In this document: one piece after another, positions 407 to 11,619 of the stretch | Numbering within the stretch: position 1 is the stretch's first letter | Layout: every line of letters starts with the position of its first letter | Assembly: GCA_017465565.1 (NCBI GenBank) | Contig: JAFTWA010000051.1 | Span: forward strand, 1-53,740 | Reading direction: 5' to 3' | DNA length: 53,740 nt | Source: Tyzzerella sp. | GTDB taxonomy: Bacteria; Bacillota; Clostridia; Lachnospirales; Lachnospiraceae | The notes under the pieces: model-generated | What the model saw: the letters and a program-made list of their open reading frames with translations, nothing else | What the model was told of the DNA's origin: nothing | Databases searched by the model: none | Program-made: the position numbers and the translations under genes

Positions 407-1366
407 TTATAAAGATTCTTTTATAACACGAAGTGCATTCCCCGACCAAAACTTATCCATCTGCGATGCTGTGAATCCTCTTTTCTTAATCGCATCAAAG
501 ACCTCATCCATCTGCCCAATGTGTGTAATGGTCGATTCTCCGTCATCAAATCCATCAAAATCTGTACCCATGGCAACAAAATCTTCTCCGCCTTTTCTAT
601 ACATATATTCCACATGGTCTGCCAAATGTTCTGTAGTAATTTTATTACTTTCATGCACAAATAAAGGATAGAAATTTACTCCCGCAATGCCCCCATTTTC
701 TGCAAGCGCATGAATCATCTCATCCGTCAGATTTCGCGGATGATTGCAGAGCGCCCTTGCATTGGAATGAGACGCAACGACTGGCTTTTTACTGTATTTT
801 AGTACATCCCAGAAGCCACCATCTGACAGGTGCGATACGTCTACGAGCATACCCAGTTCATTCATACGCTCCACGACTTCAATCCCAAAAGGCTTTAATC
901 CCATTTGCATCGCAGCTTCTTCTCTGCTATTTGGATAACCCAGACAATTTTCCCAGTTCCAGGTAAGTGTAATCAGCCGGATTCCCTGACGATAAAGCTC
1001 CTCCAAATATGACATCTTCCCATTCAGAATACCGCCTTCTTCAATTGTTAAAATTGCAGACATCTTTCCTGCTTCTTTATTCTTTATGATTTCCTCATAA
1101 TTTCTTGCAATTGCAATCTGGTCTGCGTTATCTGAAAACTCTTTCTTTCCACGTTCTATCATTCGCAGTGCATGCTCATACCCCTGCTCCCAGATATCTT
1201 CCCCCTGGAAACGCTTCACAAAGATAAAACAGGCAAAAAACTGCGCAAGACTTCCTGCTTTTTTCATCTTTGCAAGATCTATAGAGAAATTATTTTCTCG
1301 CAAATTTGTTCCCGGCTCCCACATAAACTTCAAAAGTGTATCACAGTGTAAATCAATTAAATTCAT
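407..1366 (-). CDS. Membrane dipeptidase family (peptidase M19) protein
   Basis: A 319-residue zinc dipeptidase of the renal/microsomal dipeptidase family, which cleaves the peptide bond of dipeptides, including D-residue-containing ones in some members. Visible motifs are the N-terminal metal-binding DLHCDT, then SHLSD, SHSNAR and the C-terminal GTDFDGFD. No signal peptide is present, so it is probably cytoplasmic. I chose the ATG at 1366 because AGGGAG lies 10 nt upstream; the longer frame to 1417 adds 17 residues that do not fit the family and has no binding site. It is divergent from the next gene, with only 65 bp between the two starts. A TATAAT at 1397-1402 (minus) is a plausible -10, but the -35 is poor. 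The exact substrate is unknown. Confidence 0.9.
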   Translation of the reverse strand: MNLIDLHCDTLLKFMWEPGTNLRENNFSIDLAKMKKAGSLAQFFACFIFVKRFQGEDIWEQGYEHALRMIERGKKEFSDNADQIAIARNYEEIIKNKEAGKMSAILTIEEGGILNGKMSYLEELYRQGIRLITLTWNWENCLGYPNSREEAAMQMGLKPFGIEVVERMNELGMLVDVSHLSDGGFWDVLKYSKKPVVASHSNARALCNHPRNLTDEMIHALAENGGIAGVNFYPLFVHESNKITTEHLADHVEYMYRKGGEDFVAMGTDFDGFDDGESTITHIGQMDEVFDAIKKRGFTASQMDKFWSGNALRVIKESL

Positions 1367-1431: not shown

Positions 1432-2127
1432 ATGAAACCTAAAATCGGAATCGTCGTTTGTGGAATCCACGAACAAAAACAATTTGTTACAGATGCTTAC
1501 ATTCAGGTAATAAAGCAGACAGGCGGTCTCCCTATCATTTTACCGCTTGTCAAATCAAAGACAGCTATTGCTGAATACGTTTCACTCTGTGATGGCTTCT
1601 TATTCTGTGGAGGCGGTGACATTACCCCTCTGCTTTTTGGTATGGAACCTGCATATGGACTGCGGGAAACTGATATTTCGCTCGACCTATTTCAGATACG
1701 GATGATGAAAGCTGCTATTGAAAGCAGGAAGCCAATTTTTGCTATCTGCCGCGGCATGCAAGTTTTAAACGTTGCCTGTGGCGGTACCATTTATCAGGAT
1801 TTAGAAGCTTTAGGCTCTGTGATTAACCACATGCAGACCAGCCAGCTCCGCAAAGATATCAGCCATAAAGTTCTCTTTACAGAAAAAACGAAGCTCCATC
1901 ACTATCTGGGCGACTTTGCCTACACCAACAGCTTTCACCATCAGGCAGTAGACCAGCTTGGAAAGGATTTGATTGTGTCCGGCAGGGCTGGTGATGATAT
2001 CATTGAAGCGATAGAAATGCCATCACATCCCTTTGTAATTGGGGTGCAATGGCATCCTGAATGCATGTGTAATTCCTCATCCAATATGAGGCTTCTTTTC
2101 CATGCTTTTATTCATTATACAAAATAA
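1432..2127 (+). CDS. Gamma-glutamyl-GABA hydrolase-like class I glutamine amidotransferase (peptidase C26)
   Basis: A 231-residue cytoplasmic hydrolase of the PuuD-like family, which removes gamma-glutamyl groups from amides such as gamma-glutamyl-GABA. The family pattern is clear: GGGDITPLLFG near residue 60, nucleophile Cys106 in ICRGMQVLN, and the His of the triad in GVQWHPE near the C terminus. The ATG at 1432 is preceded by AGGAAG at 5-nt spacing; the upstream in-frame extension to 1336 runs through the divergent promoter region and is not credible. It sits head-to-head with the dipeptidase gene, which hints at a shared role in small-peptide or gamma-glutamyl turnover, but that is inference. 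Its stop codon is separated by one base from the convergent ABC-F stop. Confidence 0.88.
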   Translation: MKPKIGIVVCGIHEQKQFVTDAYIQVIKQTGGLPIILPLVKSKTAIAEYVSLCDGFLFCGGGDITPLLFGMEPAYGLRETDISLDLFQIRMMKAAIESRKPIFAICRGMQVLNVACGGTIYQDLEALGSVINHMQTSQLRKDISHKVLFTEKTKLHHYLGDFAYTNSFHHQAVDQLGKDLIVSGRAGDDIIEAIEMPSHPFVIGVQWHPECMCNSSSNMRLLFHAFIHYTK

Positions 2128-4743: not shown

Positions 4744-6519
4744 TTATTTTTGAGCGTCTAAGTATTTTTGGAGATATTCTGCACTCTTTTCAAGGTCGAA
4801 TTTAAGTTCGTTACCTGTGTCAATTAATGTAGAGAATGAAGAATATAATTTACCTACAAGACCACTGTTGTATGTAATGTAGTCTTCTTGGTTAACAGCA
4901 TACATAACTGCTTTTCTTAAGTTAACATCAGCCATTGGTTTTCCTTCAGCCATGTTGAATTCACAGTATGTTGTAGCATGTCTTACATAGTTGAATACAT
5001 GGTATCCTTCTTTTTCAAATGTAGCAACGTCATTTGTGTTACATGAGTCCATGATGTCGATTTCACCGTTACGGAATCCTAAGCCAGCTGATGTAGAATC
5101 TTTGTAGAATTTCATACCTACATTAGCAATCTTTGGAGCATATTCTGTTCCAGCCATGTAACCTGGGTTTCTTTCGAATTTGATTTCGTAATCTGTGTAT
5201 TCAACAAGTGCATAAGGACCTGATAAGTAAAGCATGTTTTCACCAGATTTAACAGCCTGTGGGTCACCGTAGCATACGTGTGTATTTGGATCGTATTCTT
5301 CAACTGTGAATTTTGAGTTGTAAGCTTCACATTGTTCTTTGTTAACGATACCAGCTGATTGGTGAGCTAAGTAGTAAAGTACTTGTGGGAAAGCTGTTCC
5401 TGTTTCTACTTTAACAACTTGGTATGCACCTGCTGCATTGTTTACATCAGCGTCAGCAGCTACTAATGTGCTAACTGGTGTAGCAAGATCCTTAGATAAT
5501 GTTTCAAGGATTGTAGCACCTGTATCAGAATCTTTTACTGTGTTAAGTTCGTTCATATCTGTTACTACAGAGATGTTTGACATATGGTTGTGTAAGTTGT
5601 ATGTCTTGTGTGAAGCAACGCTTTTTTGGTTAGCTGCTCTTGTAAGAGAGTATACAACGTCTTCACCACCAACAAGGATGTCAGTAGCTTGTACATGTTT
5701 GTCAACAACTTTTGAGAAGAATACGTCATCACGAAGGATGAAGTAGAATGCCTGGTTACCTTCAGCGATTGCATAGTTAAGTGAAAGTGAACCATCTGAT
5801 TCGATTTGGTCATCTTCTGTCATGTTGATGATACGAATGTTAATGTTAGATGATAATTGGTTGATAGAACCATCGTTAGCTTGGATTGGGTCTAATGATG
5901 TAAGAGCCATAGTGTTGTACATCATAAGTGTTCTTGTCTCATTTTGAGATGCATCAACATATGAGTAATTTTCCCAGAATGCTGAACGAGATTGTGGGTT
6001 CTTAACTGTGTTGATATCAACAACGTCATCGTTTACTACACGGATACCTCTTGAAGCATATAATGGCAATGTGTAAGCCTTTTCTGTTACAAGATAGTTT
6101 TCAAGTTCTGTGTAAGTTGCAACGTATTGAGCTGGTGTTTCTCCAGCAGCTTTGTCGATAAGTTCATCAACTTTTTCATCGTTGATTCCACCACCGTTGT
6201 ATTCGCCGTATGAAGCGTAGATATCTCTTGTAGCGTAGTCAGGGTTACCTGTTACTGTTGTCCATCCAGACATAACGATATCCCATTCTCCTGATTCTTC
6301 TACAGTTGTCATACTAGAATAGTCTGGTTGAATGTTTGTTGTAACATCAAAACCAGCTTTTACTAATTGGTCACGTAAGATGTTAGTTGCTGCTTCTTGA
6401 GCAGAATAACTTAATAACGTGATTTTCACTTTTTCGCCTTCGTCATCTTTGCCGCCACCACAAGCAACTAAAGAGAACATCATAACGAGAGAAAGTGCTA
6501 AAGCAACTAATTTTTTCAT
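4744..6519 (-). CDS. Peptide/nickel-family ABC substrate-binding lipoprotein with circularly permuted domain order
   Basis: A 591-residue secreted lipoprotein: lysine-led signal peptide and lipobox LVAC with Cys20. ATG 6519 has GGAG 9 nt upstream; the frame to 6594 has no such site. Unlike canonical SBP_bac_5 proteins, residues 31-188 resemble the normal C-terminal part (KITLLSYSAQ near 32, DIVMSGW near 80, GNPDY near 91, LPLYASRG near 151). The normal N-terminal part begins near residue 197 (TSLDPIQANDG, then FILRDDVFF, EDVVYSL, GPYALVEY, RNPGYM, VNLRKAVMYAVN) and ends with DLEKSAEYLQKYL, the segment that usually precedes the C-terminal lobe. The junction is near nucleotide 5950. It is the last operon gene and also has its own promoter. 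Family assignment is firm; permutation is inferred from motif order; the ligand is unknown. Confidence 0.88.
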   Translation of the reverse strand: MKKLVALALSLVMMFSLVACGGGKDDEGEKVKITLLSYSAQEAATNILRDQLVKAGFDVTTNIQPDYSSMTTVEESGEWDIVMSGWTTVTGNPDYATRDIYASYGEYNGGGINDEKVDELIDKAAGETPAQYVATYTELENYLVTEKAYTLPLYASRGIRVVNDDVVDINTVKNPQSRSAFWENYSYVDASQNETRTLMMYNTMALTSLDPIQANDGSINQLSSNINIRIINMTEDDQIESDGSLSLNYAIAEGNQAFYFILRDDVFFSKVVDKHVQATDILVGGEDVVYSLTRAANQKSVASHKTYNLHNHMSNISVVTDMNELNTVKDSDTGATILETLSKDLATPVSTLVAADADVNNAAGAYQVVKVETGTAFPQVLYYLAHQSAGIVNKEQCEAYNSKFTVEEYDPNTHVCYGDPQAVKSGENMLYLSGPYALVEYTDYEIKFERNPGYMAGTEYAPKIANVGMKFYKDSTSAGLGFRNGEIDIMDSCNTNDVATFEKEGYHVFNYVRHATTYCEFNMAEGKPMADVNLRKAVMYAVNQEDYITYNSGLVGKLYSSFSTLIDTGNELKFDLEKSAEYLQKYLDAQK

Positions 6520-6653: not shown

Positions 6654-7652
6654 CTATTGTCCTTCGTATTTCAGTGTACCATTAGCCACTTCTTCCCATC
6701 TGTGACATGCCACAAAATGATTTGGTACTGCTTCTACGAATTGTGGGTTTTCGTTCATACATTTTTCTGTAGCGAATGGACAACGTGTCGCAAAACGACA
6801 TCCCACTTTAGGGTTGATTGGTGAAGTGATTTCACCTTTCAAAATAACTTTTTTGCTCTTTTGCAATACGTTCGTTGATGGAATCGCAGACAATAAAGCA
6901 ATTGTGTATGGATGTAATGGTTTTTCAAAGATGTTCTTCTTAGGAGCTTTTTCAATCAATTGTCCCAAGTACATAACTCCGATATTTGTTGAAATATGCT
7001 TTACAACTGATAAATCATGAGAAATGAACATATATGTAAGTCCCATTTTCTTTTGAAGATCCATAAGGAGGTTCAAAATCTGTGCCTGTACAGATACGTC
7101 AAGAGCTGATACAGGTTCATCACATACGATAAATTGTGGATTAATAGAAAGTGCACGTGCAATAACGACACGCTGACGACGTCCGCCGTCGAATTCGTGT
7201 GGATATTGGTTGTAAGAACGCATTGGCAATCCTACTAAATCCATGAGTTCTTCAACTCTTGCTCTTCTCTCTTCTGCTGTCTTGTAGATTTTATGAAGCT
7301 TTAATGGTTCTTCAATAATCTGTCCGATCGTCATACGAGGGTTTAATGATGCATATGGATCCTGGAAAATAATCTGCATATTTTGACGCATGAAACGCAT
7401 TTCTTCTGCAGAAAAGTTATTAATATCCATACCATCGTAAAGCACATCACCGCTTGTTGCTTCGTGAAGACGAAGAATAACACGTCCTAATGTACTTTTA
7501 CCACATCCAGATTCACCTACGATACCTAATGTTTCACCTTTGTTGATTGTAAGGTTAACATCATCTACAGCGTGGAGAAATCCTGCTGGAACAGGGAAAT
7601 ATTTTTTAAGACGTTTGGTTTCAATTAAAACCTGGTTTTCCTTATTTTCCAT
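6654..7652 (-). CDS. Oligopeptide/dipeptide ABC transporter ATPase, F type
   Basis: A 332-residue cytoplasmic ATPase that pairs with the D subunit to drive import. Walker A is GESGCGKST near residue 48 and Walker B is [12 protein letters not shown]. The expected LSGGQ signature reads FDGGRRQRV, with Asp at the signature Ser position. The C-terminal oligo_HPY extension carries cysteines in [15 protein letters not shown] and HFVACH. Its ATG overlaps the preceding D-gene stop as TAATG, and the AAGGAGG binding site lies inside the D gene, so translation is probably coupled. The changed signature would weaken one of the two composite ATP sites if the pair follows the usual asymmetric model. Confidence 0.93.
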
Positions 7653-8629
7653 TATTTTTCCTCCTTGCTGAATAAGTCAAAGTGACACATAAATTTATGT
7701 TCGTCACCATGCTGTGATGGCTGCTGTTTCTTACAGATTTCCTGACAGTAACGGCAACGTGGGTGGAAGTAGCAACCTGTAGGCAAATCAGCCGCATTTG
7801 AGATTGCACCTTCAATCGGAATAAGTTCCGTTGCATCATCATCCAATTTTGGAATAGATTCAAACAAACCTCTTGTATAAGGATGCTTTGGATTCAAATA
7901 AACTTCTTTAACTGTACCTGATTCCACAATCTGACCAGCATACATAATTGCTACATTATCACATGTTTCTGCAACTACACCAAGGTCATGAGTAATAAGA
8001 ATCATAGCCATTTTATATTTTTCACGAAGATTATTGATAATATCAAGAACCTGCGCCTGGATTGTTACGTCAAGGGCTGTTGTAGGTTCGTCAGCAATGA
8101 GCAGTTTAGGATTACAAAGAAGACTCATTGCAATAACAACACGCTGTTTTTGCCCACCTGAGAATTGGTGTGGATAGTCATCGTAACGGTCTGCCTTAAC
8201 ACCTACGATTTCCAATAAATCAATAACACGCTTCTTTGCTTCTGCTTTTGAAACCTTTTCGTGGGTAAGCACAACTTCTGCAAGCTGCTCTCCTACTGTC
8301 ATGATAGGGTTTAACGCTGTCATTGGATCCTGGAAAATCATAGAGATACCATTACCGCGCATTGCTTCATTTTCTTTATCTGTATTATAAATTACATTTT
8401 TTCCTTCAAACTCGATTTCACCATCAACAATAATTCCAGGTGGGTCCGGAATCAATTGCATGATAGAAAGGGCTGTTGTTGTCTTACCAGCACCTGTTTC
8501 ACCAACAAGTCCGAGAGCCTTACCCTCTTGTACTTCAAAATCAATGCCATTTACAGCTTTTGCTGTCATTTCGCTTGTAACATAGTGAACATGAAGGTTT
8601 TTTACACTTAAAACTTTATTGTTTTCCAT
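7652..8629 (-). CDS. Oligopeptide/dipeptide ABC transporter ATPase, D type
   Basis: A 325-residue ATPase with Walker [10 protein letters not shown], a canonical signature FSGGQKQRV, Walker [13 protein letters not shown] and the switch histidine in LITHDLG. The oligo_HPY C-terminal segment has [15 protein letters not shown] and a final cysteine-histidine pair, as in OppD and DppD. The ATG at 8629 has AGGAGG 6 nt upstream. It lies 16 bp after the C permease stop and overlaps the F gene by one base. With the F subunit it forms the ATP-hydrolysing heterodimer on the cytoplasmic face. Confidence 0.95.
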
Positions 8630-8645: not shown

Positions 8646-10187
8646 TTATTTCAATTTAGGGTCAAGTGCATCACGAAGACCATCACCGAAGAAGTTGAAT
8701 GCTAATACGATGAGGATAATAGCAAGACCCGGGAAGATTGCTATGTAAGGATTGGTTTCAAGGAATGTAGAACCAGCCTTAAGTACGTTACCCCATTCAG
8801 GAACATGTGGCTCAACACCAAGACCTAAGTAAGATAATGATGATGTTGAAAGTACGGCAGAACCGATACCCATTGTAGCCTGTACAATAACTGGAGCTAA
8901 TGAGTTCGGAATAATATGTCTGAAAATAATCGTTCCGTTCTTAGCACCACATGCTTTTGCAGCTTCAACGAATTCTTGGTTTGATACGCCGAGAACCTGT
9001 GCACGCACGATTCTCGCATATCCAGGAATACTCGAAACGGAAAGCGCTAATACCAGGTTGATTGTACTTACACCAAATGCAGCAATGATAGCAATTGCTA
9101 AAAGGATAGATGGTACAGCGTTAAATACGTCAAGTACACGCATAATACCGTTATCAATCTTACCACCAAAATATCCTGCCATCGCACCAAGAAGTCCACC
9201 TGCGATAATCGGTGCAATTGTTGAAATTAAACCGATGATAAGTGAAATACGGGCACCAAATACAAGTCTTGTAAATACACAGCGGCCATATTCGTCACAG
9301 CCAAATGGATATTTGAGGCTTGGCTCTGCAAGTCTTGCAGCAAAGTTGTTTGAAATCGCAATATCGTAATCAAATGTAAGATTTGAACCGATAGAAAGCG
9401 AAATAAAGAATACTACAAGCAGCACACCAATAACAGCTGTATAGTTTCTGAACAGACGAACAATAATATCTATCCATTCTACACTCACTTCTTCATTCTT
9501 ATTGCGGTACTTACCAATTGTAATAAGACCTAATACAAATAAGAACACATTACCTAATGCGATACCCAAAATAGAAATTACTGCAAAAGGAATAAATTTC
9601 TTATCTGGTTTTTTACCAAATGTATACTTGTTAACTGCAACCAGAATCACAAGGTTTAATAACGCATAAAGCACATAAAGGCCGATACCTAACCAGAATG
9701 TTTCTACCTGTGCTTCTTTGAAAAGATTGATGAAAGAAACAAAGATGATAAGTACAGTTACTAAGAAAGAATAAATCGTTAACTGATATTCTAAGTTCTT
9801 CTCTTTCTTAACAAGCATTGCACCTGCAATAAACATGAAAAGATTACCTGTAACAAGACAGATGATAAGAAGCACACCTAACTTTCTAGTTGCATCAGAA
9901 ATCTGTCCTTCGTTACCAGTTACTTCCTTCTCAATTTTCTTCATTACAAACATTTGTAATAAAGCTTCCACAGCAAATACTGCCGTAAGTATAATCATTA
10001 TCACAGAAGGAGCATTGCCCTGCGCTATCGGCATTACTACTTGCCATAATAATAAGAAAATTGCTAATACAGATGTAAGCTGATATGCAAATCTTGATGT
10101 TGTAAATTCAAGAGAGCCGCCTAATTTTCTGTTTTTTACTTTTTTCTGATAAAAATCGATATTTTTTTGATTTTCTACTTTAGCCAT
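8646..10187 (-). CDS. Oligopeptide/dipeptide ABC transporter permease, C type, with N-terminal membrane extension
   Basis: A 513-residue membrane protein. The last 280 residues or so are a normal OppC/DppC permease: an N-terminal helix, a GCDEYGR segment in place of the usual GTDELGR, and the EAA loop EAAKACGAKNGTIIFRHIIPN that docks to the ATPase. The first 235 residues are extra, with about six hydrophobic segments separated by charged loops such as MKKIEKEVTG and NKYTFGKKPDKK. Typical family length is near 300. The ATG at 10187 is preferred over a GTG at 10196 because GGAG and AGAGG lie at proper spacing upstream. The extension resembles no domain I recognise. Confidence 0.9.
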   Translation of the reverse strand: MAKVENQKNIDFYQKKVKNRKLGGSLEFTTSRFAYQLTSVLAIFLLLWQVVMPIAQGNAPSVIMIILTAVFAVEALLQMFVMKKIEKEVTGNEGQISDATRKLGVLLIICLVTGNLFMFIAGAMLVKKEKNLEYQLTIYSFLVTVLIIFVSFINLFKEAQVETFWLGIGLYVLYALLNLVILVAVNKYTFGKKPDKKFIPFAVISILGIALGNVFLFVLGLITIGKYRNKNEEVSVEWIDIIVRLFRNYTAVIGVLLVVFFISLSIGSNLTFDYDIAISNNFAARLAEPSLKYPFGCDEYGRCVFTRLVFGARISLIIGLISTIAPIIAGGLLGAMAGYFGGKIDNGIMRVLDVFNAVPSILLAIAIIAAFGVSTINLVLALSVSSIPGYARIVRAQVLGVSNQEFVEAAKACGAKNGTIIFRHIIPNSLAPVIVQATMGIGSAVLSTSSLSYLGLGVEPHVPEWGNVLKAGSTFLETNPYIAIFPGLAIILIVLAFNFFGDGLRDALDPKLK

Positions 10188-10206
10188 TTTAAGCACCTCT
10201 CCTTTC

Positions 10207-11619
10207 CTAATAATTCTTCATCTTAGACTTGATACGTGGGTCGATTACTGCGTACAGAATATCGATTACCAAGTTTGCAAGCGAAACTACGAATGAAAGG
10301 TAAACTACACCACCAAGAACTACTGGGATATCAGGAATAAATTGTTTATCAACAATGTAAGAACCGATACCGTTGATGTTGAATACTTTTTCTGTAACAG
10401 ATGCACCACCCAGTAATCCACCGAATGACATACCAACTGTTGTGATAATTGGAATCATCGCATTTCCTAAAATATGCTTTAAAACTACTTTATTTTCTGC
10501 CAAACCTTTTGCACGTGCTGTAAGAACATAGTCAGATGTCTTAACTTCCATCATAGAGGAACGAGTCATACGCGCAATGGAAGCGGACATACCAGTACCT
10601 ACAACGAAGGCCGGCATGATTAAGGTCATCCAGTTATTCGGGTCGAAACTCGTAGGAAGCAATCCAAGATTAATCGCAAATAACAGAATCATCATAAGCC
10701 CCAACCAGAAGTTAGGAATTGATAATCCTAATAATGCAAAGAACATCGCTATGTAGTCAAATGATGTATAAGGTTTGATTGCTGAAATGATACCAGCTGG
10801 AATTGCAATCACCAAAGCAACTACCATTGACCAGAATGTTACCTGAAGTGTGATTGGGAATCTTGAACCAATCGCTTCCATAACAGGTGCATTATCCTGA
10901 TATGCGTTCCCCAAATCAAATGTAATTAAGTTTTTAAATGTTCTAAATAATTGTACAAGGTATGGTTGGTCTAAACCATGCATGCTCTTCCATGAATCAA
11001 TCATATCCTGAGTAGCTGTTGGACCGAGGATATTTTTAGACGCATCCATAGGTGCTATGTATAAAATTGTAAATACAAGCCATACTACACCGAAAAGAAC
11101 GAAAATCATCATGAAGATACGTTCTGTTGCATATTTGGCAATTGGTCTTGTGAATAAGAACATGATGATATACATTGGTAAAGAAATTACAATTGAAATA
11201 ATTCTGAACAACATATTATCCATGAGGTCTGAATAACATGAAGCCATTGTAATTTCTTTGATATTCTGCATTTCAGCAATTTCTTTTGCCTTGTCGTGCA
11301 GAATTGTCTCAAAATTCTTATTAGCAATCGCTTTTGCTTCTTTTTCTACATCACTGTCTGATGCAGTCTTTCTGAAGTATTCATTTTTCTTCTTAACCTG
11401 AATGATAGCATCTGCTAAAAGTTTTTCTTTCAGGTTCTGCGCATCCAGCTCTTCTCTTACTTTCGTCTTCACTCCTGCGAATGCATCTTTACCTTTTCTA
11501 CACTTATAGGTAATAAATGTAATCAGCACTGTGAAGAAACCAAGTACCCAAAGCCAGATACGATACGTTGAATTGCGGTACATTCTTGTGAATGTATCTT
11601 TAAACGTTTTAATGTTCAT
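10207..11619 (-). CDS. Oligopeptide/dipeptide ABC transporter permease, B type, with N-terminal extension
   Basis: A 470-residue membrane protein. From about residue 150 it is a standard OppB/DppB permease (RPIAKYATERIFMM, then MHGLDQPYLVQ, IPNFWLGL, and the EAA-like loop TARAKGLAENKVVLKHILGNAM). The first 150 residues are not typical: one hydrophobic segment (WLWVLGFFTVLITF), a long charged helical stretch rich in Lys, Glu and Ala that could form a coiled coil, and a second hydrophobic segment. The ATG at 11619 has GGGAG at 7-nt spacing; the upstream frame to 11709 crosses the hairpin region and is unlikely. It is the first gene of the transporter operon. A clear promoter was not found in the AT-rich upstream DNA. 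Confidence 0.9.
   Translation of the reverse strand: MNIKTFKDTFTRMYRNSTYRIWLWVLGFFTVLITFITYKCRKGKDAFAGVKTKVREELDAQNLKEKLLADAIIQVKKKNEYFRKTASDSDVEKEAKAIANKNFETILHDKAKEIAEMQNIKEITMASCYSDLMDNMLFRIISIVISLPMYIIMFLFTRPIAKYATERIFMMIFVLFGVVWLVFTILYIAPMDASKNILGPTATQDMIDSWKSMHGLDQPYLVQLFRTFKNLITFDLGNAYQDNAPVMEAIGSRFPITLQVTFWSMVVALVIAIPAGIISAIKPYTSFDYIAMFFALLGLSIPNFWLGLMMILLFAINLGLLPTSFDPNNWMTLIMPAFVVGTGMSASIARMTRSSMMEVKTSDYVLTARAKGLAENKVVLKHILGNAMIPIITTVGMSFGGLLGGASVTEKVFNINGIGSYIVDKQFIPDIPVVLGGVVYLSFVVSLANLVIDILYAVIDPRIKSKMKNY

Follow-up and report, generated by a model that had tools for sequence, protein, structure and literature searches.

A probable natural circular permutant of a cluster C solute-binding protein in a family of Gis-type importers from Gram-positive bacteria

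The window, by which we mean the whole stretch of 53,740 nt analysed here (from the gut bacterium Tyzzerella sp., assembly GCA_017465565.1, contig JAFTWA010000051.1, positions 1 to 53,740, forward strand), carries an operon in which two ATPases and two permeases, all of peptide/nickel importer type according to Pfam and NCBIfam, lie upstream of a receptor gene on the same strand (Table 1). The receptor is encoded on the minus strand by a single uninterrupted frame of 591 codons, which runs from an ATG at 6519 to a stop at 4744 and is immediately preceded on its 5' side by a ribosome-binding-like AAAGGAG. A first-pass annotation of this DNA had described one continuous reading frame with a signal peptide, and this description was borne out by the open frame, with one lipoprotein signal at its front; the family-5 motifs that it had listed are also all present in the 591-aa protein, in the order given there. 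The lipobox cysteine C20 is unchanged in all 16 aligned family members, the linker between the lipid anchor and block 1 differs in length among relatives, and block 2 terminates in a helix-like segment that in canonical proteins comes before block 1.

Table 1. Features of the receptor gene, its operon and the neighbouring peptidase genes in the window
Feature	Coordinates	Strand	Basis
Predicted permuted solute-binding lipoprotein, 591 aa (Gis-type GisD homologue)	4744..6519	-	frame, motifs, Pfam, canonical profile
Signal peptide to lipobox Cys, residues 1-20, LVAC	6460..6519	-	canonical profile 1-34
Linker from lipid anchor to block 1, residues 21-31	6427..6459	-	sequence
Block 1, residues 32-193, C-lobe second half plus canonical C-terminal tail	5941..6426	-	profile 368-517; DppA 373-535
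Fusion point of old C-terminus and old N-terminus, residues 189-195, DASQNET	5935..5955	-	DppA map, rotation scan
Block 2, residues 194-591, N-lobe plus first part of C-lobe	4747..5940	-	profile 41-362; DppA ~27-372
ATPase subunit, F type, ABC_tran + oligo_HPY	6654..7652	-	Pfam
ATPase subunit, D type, ABC_tran + oligo_HPY	7652..8629	-	Pfam
Permease C, 516 aa, N-terminal extension of ~240 aa	8646..10196	-	BPD_transp_1 at 333-516; Opp1C model from 249
Permease B, 470 aa, N-terminal extension of ~160 aa	10207..11619	-	Pfam, NCBIfam, relatives' lengths
M19 dipeptidase	407..1354	-	
C26 peptidase	1432..2127	+	

The window protein scored 119.9 bits against PF00496 (SBP_bac_5), for which the family cut-off is 32.4 bits, as expected of a cluster C (family 5) sequence, while the canonical order of elements, from N-lobe to C-lobe, was found neither in this protein nor in any of the 40 relatives read. 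In the Pfam alignment, residues 252-584 correspond to profile positions 13-274 (whole-protein E 1.8e-34), and a six-frame SBP_bac_5 search placed profile positions 13-275 on one half with 95.3 bits and positions 290-366 near the protein start with 29.2 bits, a score under the family cut-off (E 8.3e-7). The matches to solved chains split likewise, with residues 413-564 corresponding to 156-307 of the 5ISU chain and residues 29-165 to 382-523 of the 6NPO chain. On a canonical profile built from 24 proteins out of 28 loci in related genomes (L001 and L005-L031, leaving out L012, L017, L019 and L022), the window protein reads 1-34, which is the signal peptide, then 368-517 and then 41-362, for a total of 183.8 bits split into 14.9, 69.6 and 108.5 bits. 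When the protein was put in canonical order in silico, a single colinear match to profile positions 46-517 was obtained with 179.7 bits, indicating that its two pieces are complementary. When the mature protein was rotated in steps of 5 residues, its best single match climbed from 108.5 bits to 184.4, with the best start at residue 186, and a second scan, from residue 32 in steps of 4, raised it from 108.4 to 181.0 bits. Complementary pieces that become one colinear match after rotation are the sequence signature of a circular permutant, and their presence here supports the earlier proposal of a circularly permuted cluster C binding protein.

The same reading was obtained from the relatives. 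Swapped order on the canonical profile appeared in all 16 proteins of the window type, and rotation led to a single match in 15 of them, the remaining one (L048) staying in two pieces, with a best rotated match that spans only profile positions 195-510. Across 26 members, the best start of the rotation scan fell no more than 25 residues from the predicted junction in 25 and 29 residues from it in L055. As for the controls, normal order was read in all 24 canonical proteins, which are the same proteins that trained the profile, and also, outside the training set, in DppA, GsiB, L012 and L019. Two candidates for family membership, L022 from the window's own genome and L017, were rejected. Their matches spanned the signal peptide and a portion of block 1; on the canonical profile little beyond the signal peptide aligned, and by eye both resemble binding proteins of other types. 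The sole other SBP_bac_5 match in the window's genome at E 0.001 (L001, G000:C22:67541-68593) is in canonical order.

Once rotated, the window protein extends over Escherichia coli DppA from about residue 27 to the last residue, 535; chain 1DPP has 507 residues, which would make mature DppA 29-535, and the mature domain is therefore covered end to end. The new termini map to DppA residues 372 and 373, and the old C- and N-termini are joined by about seven residues. By the domain limits of DppA, the 372|373 cut would lie within the C-lobe, and in that case both lobe-lobe connections should remain and only the position of the termini moves. Compared with TpMglB-2, a permuted binding protein of another cluster discussed below, this cluster C protein, cut in its C-lobe, seems to need no added lobe crossing, if the same limits hold. 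From these correspondences we infer a rearrangement that left the signal peptide and lipid anchor at the front of the protein. It opened the mature domain within the C-lobe, directly ahead of the segment after the KSAEYL-type helix, and linked the former C-terminus to the former N-terminus through the short fusion point. The resulting protein is expected to adopt the usual two-lobed trap fold and would pass its ligand to the BCDF permease encoded in its own operon, hanging from the membrane by the C-lobe, to which the lipid anchor would now be attached, in place of the N-lobe.

The genome that the window comes from is assembled in 62 contigs and is 88.64% complete, and a contig rearranged inside the gene by assembly or binning, with a true gene of canonical order, was one of the conditions under which the first-pass annotation would have withdrawn its proposal. 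Two further Lachnospiraceae loci, found in a scan of genome contigs, are however full length and show the same order within the same five-gene operon (best segment 63% identical), and the order is also found in single-contig genomes such as G446, G1052 and G1093 and on a complete plasmid of Metabacillus dongyingensis, the only one of 72,556 records in the plasmid collection that holds most of the permuted gene. Because these independent genomes show the same order, an assembly artefact is excluded for practical purposes. Whole-genome searches, with the window's own genome among those counted, returned long matches in swapped order in 4 of the 397 genomes searched within the family, in 7 of 392 genomes of the order, in 4 of 398 genomes of the phylum and in 28 of 348 genomes in the class of G1052, a class other than the window's; three of these 28 had already been found in the phylum search, and the 25 new loci (24 plus L073) are all swapped on the canonical profile. 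Nine other genomes of the same genus were searched and gave no long swapped-order match. In total, the swapped order was read in 41 of 41 family members, window included, and the 26 rotated rows placed in a tree form one clade, so that the search for orthologues proposed with the original observation came out in its favour. A degenerate, non-functional rearranged pseudogene has a vanishingly small probability as well, since the frame is open, the distribution is wide and old, and both blocks are under purifying selection. In the codon comparison between the window gene and L032/L033, pN was 0.22 and pS 0.79-0.81, a saturated value, and between L032 and L033 dN was 0.091 and dS 1.74, with a similar pattern in block 1 and block 2. 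As judged from these comparisons, the permuted gene is under purifying selection and encodes a maintained protein, selection that leaves the nature of its function unspecified. Conservation and operon context, together with the published mutants of a staphylococcal member by analogy, thus lend support to the view that the permutant is functional.

That staphylococcal member is GisD. In the Staphylococcus aureus record NZ_CP077929.1, the gene for a divergent fused ATPase is followed by those for permease B and permease C and then by the beginning of a permuted binding-protein gene, matching the gisABCD-ggt arrangement reported in S. aureus (PMC10355420). The record folds back within its last gene and only ~222 residues can be read, which reach from the signal through block 1 and the fusion point into the first part of block 2 and fall on canonical profile positions 3-43 and then 386-508. 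Three genomes of 2.5-2.6 Mb contain full staphylococcal-type versions of 592-593 aa, permuted throughout and 75-81% identical to the readable S. aureus part, at loci that present a divergent fused ATPase, permeases B and C, the permuted receptor and a ggt-like gene; at L093, the one of the three tested, the gene after the receptor matches G_glu_transpept with 526.8 bits. Since the readable S. aureus part and its full-length near relatives are permuted, GisD is by its sequence a permutant, in S. aureus by the first part and in near relatives in full. The string 'permut' is absent from the main text of both Gis papers (PMC10355420, PMC12510641). Growth on GSSG and on GSH is impaired by an insertion in any of the five gis-ggt genes, and cells without the locus hold less GSSG after exposure (PMC10355420); when GSH is low, Gis alone sustains growth, as tested with gisD mutants (PMC12510641). 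GisD is the predicted receptor of GisABCD, the binding of ligand by GisD itself being termed predicted, and the sequences of GisD and GsiB point to different recognition (PMC10355420). As a minor observation, the S. aureus record (10180-30537, L060) is a 30.5-kb linear 'plasmid' record that looks like a misassembled chromosomal fragment, in which a gisA-gisB-gisC-gisD stretch is repeated in inverted orientation with the fold-back inside gisD, and gisD is unannotated.

The window operon shares with Gis the swapped order of the receptor, including the fusion point seen in the readable start of GisD (~222 aa), as well as a homologous and lengthened permease B (470 aa). It differs in its separate D and F ATPases, whereas Gis has a divergent fused ATPase and an adjacent ggt; no Ggt gene adjoins the window operon, and no match to PF01019 was found in the window's genome, 88.64% complete. 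The window protein is 34% identical to the readable part of S. aureus GisD over 226 aligned positions, and its ligand may therefore be a different one. While the complete GisABCD-Ggt has been reported only in relatives of S. aureus (PMC10355420), the permuted receptor and its permeases are far more widespread, mostly without ggt seen alongside. Gis-like loci with a divergent fused ATPase were common in the second class (L056-L059, L096-L104), so that the transporter extends beyond the distribution that PMC10355420 gives; by eye, no frame resembling ggt was recognised beside these loci. Overall, we assign a probability of about 0.88 to the reading in which natural circular permutation of a cluster C (family 5) solute-binding protein gave rise to the window protein, which would belong to an old family of Gis-type importers with a staphylococcal member that takes up glutathione.

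In a tree of 26 rotated permuted rows and 26 canonical rows (the 24 proteins of the profile plus DppA and GsiB), all 26 permuted rows fell on one side of a branch with support 100/100, recovered in 100% of 200 bootstrap trees. The branch leading to them is long (1.78), as are those of several canonical rows. These sequence data are consistent with a single origin of an old family, and since all the permuted rows came from similarity searches with the window protein, independent permutations might exist elsewhere. The long branch would also suit another history, in which two pieces from different binding proteins were joined by fission and fusion or by domain shuffling, instead of one ancestor being permuted, and when each block was given a tree of its own, built with 14 of the 26 permuted rows, the N-block indeed fell near GsiB-like proteins (SH-aLRT 92) and the C-block took no resolved position. 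We regard such a fusion as improbable, given that the permuted rows stay together in either block tree (SH-aLRT 100 and 96) and that the two pieces are complementary, covering DppA ~27-372 and 373-535; the order of the chain is identical whichever route made it. As for tandem duplication and loss, the route that the first-pass annotation held to be probable and that may have been taken, no duplicated intermediate was seen among the loci read, and since the signal peptide stayed in front, plain duplication followed by truncation needs an extra step.

The cargo of the window receptor is a separate question. The earlier assignment to a peptide ABC transporter stands as far as the peptide-type (cluster C) receptor is concerned, with the difference that its cargo may be glutathione-like rather than ordinary peptides. 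By analogy with the staphylococcal system, glutathione or another gamma-glutamyl or cysteine peptide seems the likeliest cargo, a proposal to which we would give about even odds. The sole member known to us with published genetics serves glutathione, a C26 peptidase gene lies ~2.6 kb from the window receptor and an M19 dipeptidase gene ~3.4 kb from it, and both products could act on an imported gamma-glutamyl peptide; at L047, the gene directly after the receptor is an SDH_alpha gene, which we take to be of the cysteine-desulfidase type. Slightly against the odds, and still to be taken seriously, the permuted receptor might instead bind ordinary di- or oligopeptides, nickel or another metal chelate. 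The best match to a named family is of the nickel type, far under its cut-off (53.7 of 600 bits), the BCDF operon resembles those of Dpp and Opp, and peptidases of the M19, M20 and M24 types occur near several operons, with M20 peptidases adjoining those of L049, L050 and L055. In DppA, R383 and D436 hold the ends of the dipeptide (PMC12136057). At the first of these positions, where the alignment is gappy, all 26 permuted proteins show a gap, and at the second V occurs in 24, P in one and T in one, so that the DppA-type pair is missing from every one of them, which argues against ordinary dipeptides. Most canonical proteins lack it too, however: among the 24, only one has R at 383 and five have D at 436, and GsiB is without both. 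The missing residues are hence weak evidence as to the ligand.

Permutation in solute-binding proteins is already known from cluster B, where TpMglB-2 (Tp0684) has been described as a 'Type Ic / Cluster Bc' circularly permuted glucose-binding lipoprotein, with relatives that include Gram-positive gut bacteria (PMC4990184). This protein is likewise tethered to the membrane and circularly permuted by nature, but it has a cluster B sugar fold, a permuted N-lobe and a fourth hinge crossing (PMC4990184). The first-pass annotation had named no earlier description for the peptide-binding family, and for cluster C no report of natural permutation appeared among the matches listed, subscription journals and supplements lying outside the search; likewise, no permutant of this kind was mentioned in a 2025 preprint on finding permutants or in a 2012 overview, both searched by binding-protein terms. 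Among the chains listed as matches (60 and 9), no solved chain matched the permuted family at full length. With the canonical proteins DppA and GsiB, compared directly, and OppA and NikA, compared through profile and PDB matches, the family shares all mature-domain elements and Pfam SBP_bac_5, differing from them in the order of the blocks and in the position of the termini, hence of the anchor. Few solute-binding proteins have been studied as well as the cluster C receptors, and here a whole clade has its halves swapped. The swap runs through an old Gram-positive family to which the glutathione importer of staphylococci also belongs. To family annotation these proteins look like two odd fragments, tools that require colinearity underestimate the clade, and docking models of receptor and permease must allow for an anchor on the C-lobe.

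The permuted receptor is linked to lengthened permeases. Permease B was read at 27 permuted-receptor loci, window included, and measures 446-517 aa in 26 of them, the copy at L051 running off its contig; by gene length, DppB has 339 aa and OppB 306 aa, and S. aureus GisB is also long, with 492 aa from its listed start. A profile of the permease B extension matched 7 of 392 genomes of the order, the same seven that have a permuted receptor, although in G441 only model positions 136-187 were matched, at a contig end; no lengthened permease B without a permuted receptor was found in these 392 genomes. In the 72,556 plasmid records the extension gave one match, inside the Metabacillus operon. Permease C has 496-516 aa at most loci and 390-403 aa at the staphylococcal-type ones. 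It is conceivable, although rather unlikely, that the permutation is adaptive: termini in the C-lobe would flip the side of the tether, a change fixed jointly with the membrane segments added to permeases B and C, and Gis-type importers would then represent a separate ABC importer architecture with its own receptor-permease geometry. The permuted clade also offers a test, set up by nature, of how far a two-lobed trap depends on chain order and on the position of its tether. At the window (8646-11619) and at L032-L033, L047-L059 and L093-L104, permeases B and C were noted to carry extra N-terminal membrane segments, with a charged stretch between the segments in B.
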